The notes beneath the pieces were generated by a model. The model did no database searches. It was given only the letters and a program-made list of their open reading frames with translations, and was not told the DNA's origin. Below, in pieces: positions 9,955-63,265 of a stretch of 64,000 nt of DNA. How positions within the stretch are numbered: position 1 is the stretch's first letter; each line of letters starts with the position of its first letter. This stretch comes from Glandiceps talaboti (lineage: Eukaryota; Hemichordata; Enteropneusta; Spengelidae): NCBI RefSeq assembly GCF_964340395.1, contig NC_135549.1:31864832-31928831 (forward strand). Direction: 5' to 3'. The position numbers were made by a program, and so were the translations under genes.

Positions 9955-12900
9955 GTTAGCAAATATCCGCTGTTATTTCATAAGCCCACATAATTTGCAT
10001 AGTATATGTCGGTCGGTAATTTTAAAACACAGGTACAGGCCAGGTGAGGTAAAGCCTGAATATTTTTTTAGATTCACATTCACATTCTGTTGTTATTTAC
10101 AATATATATTTTGAATATATAATTTCACCTTCTTTTTAATAAATGCTAATTCAACAATGTAAGTACTCGAATATGTTCACATTTCACTGTTGAAAGTGTC
10201 TATGATAAATACTCCAAACTGCCCAAACAATATCTCTCCTGACAACCATTATTTACCAATGTTAATTACTACTCACACAGGGCCTGAAAAATTAGATGTG
10301 TCATAGAGTGTGTAGTAGATAAGTACAAATCAAAGCCCATTTGTTACATTGCATACAAAAGAAGTGAGTATAAATGGTAGATGTGAACAATTATGGAAAT
10401 CCACAATTAGGCCTAATAAAAAAAACTGTGGTTCCTGTTACACTCAATTTTAGAATAGGTGGGATATGTAGATTTTTTATTTTATTTTATTATATCTATT
10501 TTTCATATTTGAGTGTCTAGTTCAAGTTTTCAATTATTTTCCAAATGGTCTCTGTGTTGTTTATTCCTTCCTATCAGATGTACAGCCATTATAGATTGGT
10601 AAGAACAGTTTTAGACTGTCAGCTTTCGCATCCACTATTTCTCGTGAGACTTCACAATTTTTGCGATTTTATTATTTTTTTTCTCGAATACGTGAAAAAA
10701 GTTTAGGGTTGGCAGTGAAAAGCTACATTGTAGGTGGGGTCCGGTAACCACAAACAAACAATTATTTTTTTTTAGACCTTACAAAGCATAGAATGTACCC
10801 ATCACCTAATCTCATTTTTTGTGCCAAATTTCATTGACCTCTGATGCAACGTATATATCAGCGGTTAGTTTCGGTTACCTAGGCTCTTGACATTCAGGGC
10901 TCAACGCCAGCTATGTATATATATATATATATATATATATATATATATATATATATATATATATATATATATATATATATATATATATATATATATATAT
11001 ATATATATATATATATATATATATATTGAAGCATAATTTTGAACATTCATATAAAACAGATTTAAATATAGGGCTAACTTTGAAACATTCTTATTATTAC
11101 ACACGGTGTTTCACTTGTTAGATTCTAATAACAATTGTTATACATATTATATTGCCCACTGAGTAACCTTTGACCTTTTCATCTTCAATGTATTTACATA
11201 AACATGACATCTCAACAAAAAATTAGTTTATAAACAAACGAGTTCTCAGTGGAAAATGGGATTAGGGGAGTGTTTGGGAAACTATGAAGGCTCCATATAA
11301 AGAATGTTGACTGTTTTTAGACTGTATATTCTTCTTTATAGTGTACATATTGAATGTCATTCAGATGATAAAGCCACTATTTACAAATTATTTTATGTAT
11401 TTAATACTAATATTAGCAGTCCTTTGAATATTCTAACATCCATGTAGCTGTTAACCTCAGAAATTACACTTTCCATTATCAAAATTTGTATATATGTTGT
11501 ACATGTAGATTTAATAATTGACTTTTAGTTATTTTGTTTATCCAGTAAGATAAGAAAAAAATGTATGCAAATATGTTTAGCAACAAGACCATTTTCATAG
11601 CAACAGTGTATATTGCAAAGACAATGACGGGTTGGGTAGGCAACTGGATAGTCATTCAGCAAATGAACACCTATAAAGTGTCTGTAAGCATTATAAAATA
11701 TATATACAGTTGTGCTACAACGCCATTGGCGCTATTTTTAAAATTTGCAGTTGATAAGGAAACAAATTTAAGAAATAACTTGAAAATCACAGTCAACACT
11801 CAAGTTTCAAGTCACATTTGTTTATTTCTCTTTCTTATCTTTTACAGGTACTGGTGATTTGTTTGTTGCAGTTTACAAACTCCTTCAGTCTAACAGTTGT
11901 TTTCCCACTGCTGCCCTTTATGACACATGATTTCTTTCCATATCTGAATGTATCACAGTTAGGTAAGACCCACTGCTGCCCTTTATGATACATGATTTCT
12001 TTCCATATCTCAATATATCACAGTTAGGTAAGACCCACTGCTGCCCTTTATGATAAATGATTTCTTTCCATACCCAGTTAGTCCATCACATTTAGGTAAA
12101 ACTCCTAGCATCATTGTCAATATGTACATATGATATACTGGTGCTGGACTATTAACTATAAAGTATAATGCCTAAATCCAAATACTAGAGTCAAACTAAA
12201 TTGCATCTACATCATTAGTTTTATGCTGCTTTAAATATATCTATGAGTCAAAATGTTAAAATCACAATTATTTTACCTGATTTTTCATGTATGTTTGAGG
12301 AGGTTGCGTATATTATTCCTGGATATTTTTCTTTATTCAGCTGGAAAATACATGTGACTTAATTACCTGGGTTTTGTCACTAATCTAATAATTTGAAGTG
12401 ACAAGGCCCTTATGTCACTTGTAATATTCTTGGCTGAACTGAGAAAAATATCAGAAGTAATATGTAATTGTTCATACAAATGAATATATTATTAGCAAAT
12501 GACATTTACAACATGTATAGTTGTAGACTGGTGATAAAATTATTATTTGTTTTCTGTAGGTTTGTATACTGGGTTTCTTGGAGGTGCGTTTTCAGCTGGC
12601 AGTTTCTTTGGTAATATCATGGTAAGTATAACATCTTTTTCATTTGGTTTCATTTGCTAGTTGCTATGGCAATGTTATGTTTAAGCTGCTCCTGTAGCTG
12701 TAACAGTACTGCAATATTTTTTTGAAAATATTTTGTGAGGTGCAATAACTTTCTTGTAATATCGTGTCCGATAACAGTATTGCATCACCTGTAGAGATAC
12801 ATATTTTTGGTAACTGTACATGTAATATGATGTATACAAGATAAAGCAAATCAAATTGATTTTTGGGTCTACACCCAAATACCAGTGCCCCCAATGGCAA

Positions 12901-62900: not shown

Positions 62901-63265
62901 CTACACACAAACTGATGGTAACCACATATTACGGCAATCAGGTGAAGTCACATTCTTACCTACACACAAACTGACGGTAACCACATATTACGGCAATCAG
63001 GTGAAGTCACATTCTTACCTACACACAAACTGATGGCAGTCAAACAGGACGATGCCCATGATGTCATCCCAGCTCCTCCTTGGAAATAGTCAACCAAAAC
63101 AGCGAAAAATATCCCAACCGTATTCTGAGTGCCTCGAACGATGAACATAACTACAAACGTCGCAATTACAATCATCCAACCCCATCCACCGTCTGGTGGT
63201 TCCTCTAGTACAGTAGGCTTTATGGTCTTCACAGCTTTACTGTCTACATCTTTGGAGTATTCCAT
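59784..63265 (-). CDS. SLC16 (monocarboxylate transporter)-like MFS protein, 4 exons, 473 aa
   Basis: The four minus-strand exons join in phase to 1422 nt. The family signature PPDGGWGWMIVIATF stands at the start of helix 1 (residues 23-37), and YFKNRHATAMGIATTGNGCG matches the second signature after helix 4. Twelve helices fit, with a ~60-residue loop 6-7 and a short C-terminal tail. Residues that MCT1-type lactate carriers need are not conserved by my alignment: helix 1 has Gln/Asn near the expected Lys, and helix 8 reads GFSMMVGGFAQG where the Asp...Arg pair is expected. It is therefore likely an orphan SLC16 member with another substrate, in the plasma membrane. Confidence 0.92.
60125..60168. 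repeat. (AC)n microsatellite in SLC16-like intron 3
   Basis: About 22 AC units on the plus strand, next to a TCTG/TCTC-rich stretch. Confidence 0.95.
60331..61176 (-). CDS. SLC16-like exon 3: helices 4-11
   Basis: Acceptor ttctatgacag, donor gtatat on the minus strand. A single 846-nt exon encodes GLARIPAVGMIGRYFKNRH onwards, loop 6-7 (DDDNNKASQKLMTSESDSA), and the C-terminal helices to GFGQLVGPPVAG, the conserved helix 11 block. Phase 1 both sides. Confidence 0.94.
61283..61560. repeat. 51/57-bp tandem repeat in SLC16-like intron 2, about 5 copies
   Basis: Units contain cactacacaacagttgtcac and tgttgttattcaatgaa. Short plus-strand frames here come from the repeat. Confidence 0.9.
61718..61861 (-). 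CDS. SLC16-like exon 2: helices 2-4
   Basis: Acceptor tatattttcacag, donor gtacgt on the minus strand. It encodes GPISAALCKRYSHRQIVFIGGLLTSVSMVISSFATN to FGVLAG, including the helix 2-3 basic loop. 144 nt, phase 1 both sides. Confidence 0.92.
61862..62534 (-). other. Unique part of intron 1 of the SLC16-like gene
   Basis: AT-rich sequence of about 0.67 kb between exon 2 and the donor array; nothing recognised. Confidence 0.7.
62535..63045 (-). repeat. 59-bp x9 array spanning the SLC16-like exon 1 splice donor
   Basis: Copies start at 62535, 62594, 62653, 62712, 62771, 62830, 62889, 62948 and 63007 (the last enters the exon). On the minus strand each holds cagtttgtgtgtag, the donor gtaaga and about 40 nt of intron. 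The copy farthest from the exon has a GC donor (gcaaga). Read-through of the first donor reaches a stop inside the next unit. Confidence 0.97.
63019..63265 (-). CDS. SLC16-like exon 1: start, helix 1, helix 2
   Basis: ATG at 63265 on the minus strand; the 22 residues before PPDGGWGW form the cytosolic N-terminus. It continues through GIFFAVLVDYF to SLCVG. Donor gtaaga. 247 nt, leaves phase 1. The exon end and donor are amplified into the intron. Confidence 0.92.

Follow-up and report, generated by a model that had tools for sequence, protein, structure and literature searches.

Three tandem arrays that run from an exon into the following intron, each spanning a donor (5' splice site), are present in a 64,000-nucleotide stretch of the genome of the hemichordate Glandiceps talaboti (G000:C1:31864832-31928831, hereafter the window; 590 Mb of genome searched). 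An MFS transporter gene on the plus strand holds two of the arrays, and an MCT gene on the minus strand holds the third. All three cross an exon-intron boundary, as "mirage" minisatellites do. Arrays of this kind recur in other genes, and a donor word occurs in tandem more often than an acceptor word. We lean, with limited confidence, towards reading them as mirage-type arrays in a hemichordate: duplications of exon-intron junctions that are tolerated at donors and filtered elsewhere. The asymmetry between donors and acceptors (3' splice sites) in this genome is supported, but not settled.

The surrounding DNA is rich in repeats. TRF returned 65 rows of tandem repeat for the window, and tandem repeat makes up ~14% of the 244 kb examined. 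A 58-bp array of 31.7 copies at 1-1853 has units with CAG|GTAGG, and the sequence just upstream of it is N. Retroelement remains were seen at 50552-52408 and 5259-5684 (a gag-like frame with a zinc knuckle; an RNase H fragment), and an exon at 47260-47583 carries collagen repeats together with the beginning of a CTHRC1-like C-terminal domain, this domain falling just below the Pfam cut-off.

Donor-spanning arrays in two transporter genes

Exons A to E of the plus-strand gene, when joined, matched Pfam MFS_1 (E 4e-19). The joined MFS exons gave no match as a protein search query, and automatic exon finding by splice scores returned none at first and few exons later. Coding exon A (11848..11962, plus strand) ends at the donor TTAG|GTAAGA at 11963, which is contained in array 1 (11904..12072, plus strand; 65-bp unit, 2.6 copies, two donor-like words), the first unit having 59 exonic bases. 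Coding exon E (18983..19115, plus strand) ends at ATAG|GTAAGT at 19116 within array 2 (19081..20279, plus strand; 60-bp unit, 20 copies, 35 exonic bases). The array 2 donor is intact in 10 of the 20 units and reads GCTAAGT in the other 10. Further along the gene, a 57-bp array (26909-30696) ends ~50 bases before exon H (30749..31441, plus strand), and the following array begins past the donor of that exon. The intron after exon G contains, by eye, a diverged second copy of part of that exon with its own CAG|GTAT (24073-24320), possibly a decayed two-copy donor duplication.

Three paralogues near C1:26.9-27.0 Mb have array 1 in identical register at the identical donor; in the two most similar of them the order of units is apparently conserved, the arrays having been split by the script into 9 and 5 pieces. 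No counterpart of array 2 was found at the same donor in the three MFS paralogues. Exon E of the sister gene is 86.7% identical and lacks an array at that donor, and the first ~20 intron bases of this array-free gene align, with some mismatches, to the intronic part of the array 2 unit (unit 2). The array 2 unit thus looks like a duplicated exon-intron junction.

In the MCT gene, all exons of which are on the minus strand, coding exon 1 (63019..63265; monocarboxylate transporter 12-like) ends at GTAG|GTAAGA. This donor lies in array 3 (62530..63033, minus strand; 59-bp unit, 8.5 copies, eight donor-like words), whose first unit has 15 exonic bases. The acceptors of exon 2 (61718..61861) and exon 3 (60308..61176, end approximate) are outside any array; exon 4 (59787..59975) is a coding match with approximate boundaries. 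The public protein P0001 ("monocarboxylate transporter 12-like [Glandiceps talaboti]", 473 aa) is 99% identical to the spliced minus-strand product from 63265, and in its model exons 1 and 2 meet precisely at array 3's first donor, that of the exonic unit. A preliminary description, made from the letters of the window, had proposed that mirage arrays would mark the lineage as amphioxus; P0001, a Glandiceps talaboti protein, rules out that source.

A paralogue on C12 (protein identity 71%) has a related array at the same donor, with a period of 51 and donor words that are mostly GTTAGC or similar, and no array was found at this donor in the MCT paralogue near C1:31.946 Mb. The public protein of the C12 paralogue (P0002) lacks the 17 residues of the 51-nt exonic unit, the first AG|GTAAG not being used in the model; at the exon 1 locus (C12:1760001-1780000; L020, L021), P0002 reads as if exon 1 were spliced at G|GTATGA, on the array's upstream edge. 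Either the gene model is in error or the exon end has been moved by the array. At the other end of the window's gene, a 29-bp array (59293-59780) begins a few bases past the end of the MCT coding match. 29-bp arrays also stand shortly past the coding match in two neighbouring MCT paralogues (L023 525-800, L024 4045-4275), and those of the MCT genes are perhaps in the 3' UTR.

Judged by their distribution among paralogues, arrays 1 and 3, which are common to paralogous genes, are old and array 2 is young. An intronic, donor-free 33/44-bp array that follows exon H (31511-35742) has a counterpart with a similar unit at the corresponding position of a paralogue (L019, joined region P27, 25041-25203), so long retention may not be peculiar to arrays at donors.

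Proposed tandem duplication and tolerance at donors

Under the reading that we favour, a short stretch across an exon-intron junction (in the window's three arrays, the intron start and 15 to 59 bases of exon) would have been duplicated in tandem, and the duplicated junction may then have grown and shrunk by unequal exchange. Where the first donor is still spliced, later copies would be intronic and of low cost, so donor arrays would be tolerated. Duplication of an acceptor, or of sequence within an exon, would alter the mRNA and would be retained rarely or in frame. The data show how the arrays are built, their relative ages as judged from paralogues, their recurrence in further genes and the excess of the donor word over the acceptor word; we infer the selective filter, the unequal exchange and, apart from the P0001 model, the use of the first donor.

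In all three arrays, a frame read on beyond the first donor hits an in-frame stop before it reaches the second, and the periods of the window's donor arrays include 65 and 59, which are not multiples of 3, the third being 60. The arrays inside coding exons have periods of 63 and 21, both multiples of 3; internal arrays of this sort were found in 2 of the 47 exon entries. The 63-bp array (20853..21006, plus strand) is coding, in frame and wholly within exon F (20760..21203, plus strand), a coding exon of the loop region. The preliminary description had every exon-overlapping array include the donor, which holds for 11904-12072, 19081-20279 and 62530-63033 but was too strongly worded, because 20853-21006 contains no splice site. 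Counting against this reading are the number of births, with three independent ones only among the homology-defined genes, the period of the C12 array, since 51 is a multiple of 3, and the public model of the C12 gene, which passes over the first AG|GTAAG.

Donor and acceptor sites compared

The homology-defined set comprised eight genes (four MFS and four MCT, some partly recovered). Arrays covered 7 of the 41 donors and none of the 45 acceptors (Fisher p = 0.004). The exon boundaries were entered by hand, some with an error of a few bases, and a single MCT exon was entered as two, so that the true totals are ~40 donors and ~44 acceptors. The earlier statement that no acceptor of the window's genes with donor arrays lies in an array was thereby borne out. 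Because paralogues share array 1 (four genes) and array 3 (two genes), the seven donors count as three independent births, and for the window alone a score of three donor-side births out of three is not significant (two-sided p = 0.25).

Words were also counted across the genome, a tandem match being three copies of a word with gaps of 22-52, and the share of a word being its tandem matches divided by its single occurrences. The donor word AGGTAAGT had a share of 10.7% (3097/28973), and its reversed control 2.9% (1054/36815). For the acceptor word TTTTNCAGG the share was 1.6% (509/31884), with 0.8% (172/21865) for its control. A one-base near-miss, AGCTAAGT, reached 7.0% (951/13506, the decayed half of array 2 included), its control 0.15% (16/10732). 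The donor word had the top tandem share among the six words counted (10.7 vs 7.0, 2.9, 1.6, 0.8 and 0.15%), its excess over AGCTAAGT being less clear than that over the reversed control or the acceptor word. Raw counts set beside reversed controls were not, on their own, accepted as proof, because donor and acceptor words alike come out threefold above their controls (3097:1054, 509:172). A dispersed element with repeated TTTTCCAGGG words (e.g. C1:3802663) accounts for many of the acceptor-word tandem matches listed.

At a period of exactly 50, there were 88 donor-word vs 7 control matches, read as six arrays. At a period of 60 there were 288 vs 60, and the first 100 listed came, by reading, from ten arrays, with array 2 recovered again among them. 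Match counts are dominated by a few long arrays, and the 7.0% of the near-miss word shows that they are noisy. A pure tolerance filter predicts that donor arrays are no commoner than neutral, and the donor word's top share counts against such a filter. A bias of birth or expansion at donors, added to tolerance, is possible; we keep it as a possibility and not as a conclusion because of the noise in the match counts that the near-miss word reveals. Arrays "born at" donors are not separated by these data from arrays "tolerated at" donors.

The further step, that donors are a mutational hot spot at which transcription-linked breaks, R-loops or template switching make tandem duplications near the 5' ends of introns, we consider unlikely. 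The donor word's first place among the six agrees with it, as does array 2, which most simply arose at its donor after the split from the sister gene, but the near-miss word comes close behind by match count, and selection alone would yield an equal asymmetry between donors and acceptors.

Because long arrays drive match counts, more weight was given to counts of places. Among the first 100 listed sites of each word, which reach no further than roughly the first 3 Mb of C1 and cover the strands unevenly, separate places with at least three sites numbered 5 of 68 for the donor word and 0 of 97 for the acceptor word (Fisher p = 0.011). By eye, none was seen for AGCTAAGT among its first 100 listed sites. 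Rate tests on the first listed places were weak and were set aside: they concerned one chromosome end with uneven strands, and their acceptor arrays were hand-picked, with the dispersed TTTTCCAGGG element and two unclear places omitted. A local test on array units outside the paralogue regions, a small sample, did not find donors in excess at four of the five thresholds (e.g. 7 vs 8 reversed controls). A local estimate of single sites (donor 17 vs control 10) was replaced by the genome-wide count, which ran the opposite way (28973 vs 36815). The genome-wide check of donor against acceptor overlap that the preliminary description had called for thus found an excess of word share at donors, tempered by the near-miss share of 7.0% and the null local test.

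The flanks of ten other donor-word arrays and six acceptor-word arrays (two of them from one repeat family) were examined for exons. At three donor-word arrays a clear open exon ends at the array's first donor: two of these exons match Pkinase (L045, E 4e-12) and Peptidase_M1 (L047, E 2e-11), and the third, of 45 aa, has no significant family (L035). One more has a probable exon by eye (L036), two have short candidates (L033, L034), and flank reading found no exon at four of the ten (L032, L043, L044, L046). None of the six acceptor-word arrays clearly abuts an exon. A loose rule of an open reading frame plus an acceptor was dropped as undiscriminating: three of the ten donor-word arrays passed it, vs 25% at random positions, and two acceptor-word arrays (L042 and L038) passed the loose rule at a chance rate of 21%.

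It might be supposed that there is no special relation at all, a minisatellite-rich genome overlapping exon ends by chance and the three donor-side arrays being luck. The p value for the window's three births and the local array-unit test would allow this, but the genome-wide word counts, the exons of the kinase and the M1 peptidase, and the 5 of 68 against 0 of 97 places argue against it, and we think it less likely still than the hot spot. A benefit from the donor rows themselves, whose U1 snRNP sites at the intron start would strengthen exon definition or block early polyadenylation so that arrays are kept, is very improbable: four paralogous genes do still have array 1, and two have array 3, but intronic copies decay (GCTAAGT in half of the array 2 units, mostly GTTAGC or similar on C12), and the donor-free intronic 44-bp array also seems common to paralogues.

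Junction duplication with tolerance at donors, to which we return as the preferred reading, has a bolder extension that we regard as conceivable, if on balance doubtful. Acorn worm donors, and almost never acceptors, would be true birthplaces of minisatellites, with repeated births and perhaps (by extrapolation) hundreds of donor-anchored arrays genome-wide, some kept through several gene duplications and forming an AG|GT reservoir for shifts of exon ends and for intron gain, a trait maybe shared with cephalochordates. Should an annotated count uphold the donor excess, there would be many natural cases of boundary movement and of intron origin by tandem duplication. The paralogue series, with old shared arrays and a young array beside an array-free sister, makes the steps of birth and decay orderable.

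Relation to known boundary minisatellites

Minisatellite-like duplications of exon-intron boundaries, termed "mirage" minisatellites, are described for the globin and Adh genes of amphioxus in the passages available from PMC3087553, and the likeness to amphioxus Adh that the preliminary description had drawn proved right in kind. A search of open-licence papers on minisatellites, hemichordates and splicing found no paper, and one on the genome of Glandiceps talaboti returned a paper about amylases. As far as these searches went, the arrays are of a known kind in a new phylum, and mirage arrays are no cephalochordate oddity.

The likeness extends to structure. In passages on the amphioxus cases Adh3, BflGb6, BflGb9 and PGBD5 (PMC3087553, PMC3902484), as here, arrays span exon-intron boundaries and many units contain AG/GT, and the unit sizes overlap (10-72 bp for the Adh3 mirage, PMC3087553; 59-65 bp for the window's three donor arrays). 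Splicing is reportedly undisturbed according to Adh3 data and globin RT-PCR (PMC3087553, in part); here, the P0001 model uses the first donor and the P0002 model skips the 51-nt unit. Besides the hemichordate host, the sites differ. By the same partial accounts, amphioxus mirages can duplicate both 5' and 3' boundaries, BflGb6 being on the 3' splice-site side (PMC3087553), and the PGBD5 repeats overlap both 5' and 3' splice sites (PMC3902484), whereas here donors are the only splice sites found in arrays. Of the earlier claim that such arrays are born at donors and never at acceptors, the second half agrees with this window, where no acceptor that could be defined lies in an array, but is not general for mirages, because BflGb6 and PGBD5 involve 3' sites.

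The human IFI6 (6-16) minisatellite likewise provides repeated 5' splice sites (Turri 1995, via passages of PMC4526556). Its downstream units are reportedly used as donors, giving several mRNAs (PMC4526556), whereas the public model for array 3 uses the first donor. Internal tandem repeats in human paralogues offer another parallel, as boundary minisatellites there also reshape the gene structure of recent duplicates; that case concerns human segmental duplications, and the passages seen of PMC2812944 describe no donor-specific class.

An intron-gain model for mirage duplications has already been proposed (PMC3087553, in part). In the Rogers model, named in that source and with a recent case in PMC4974935 (likewise in part), the two ends of a new intron can come from a duplicated AG|GT, which the units described here could also provide. 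The introns in the present genes pre-exist, in distinction from that model, and the C12 annotation hints only at a shift of the boundary.
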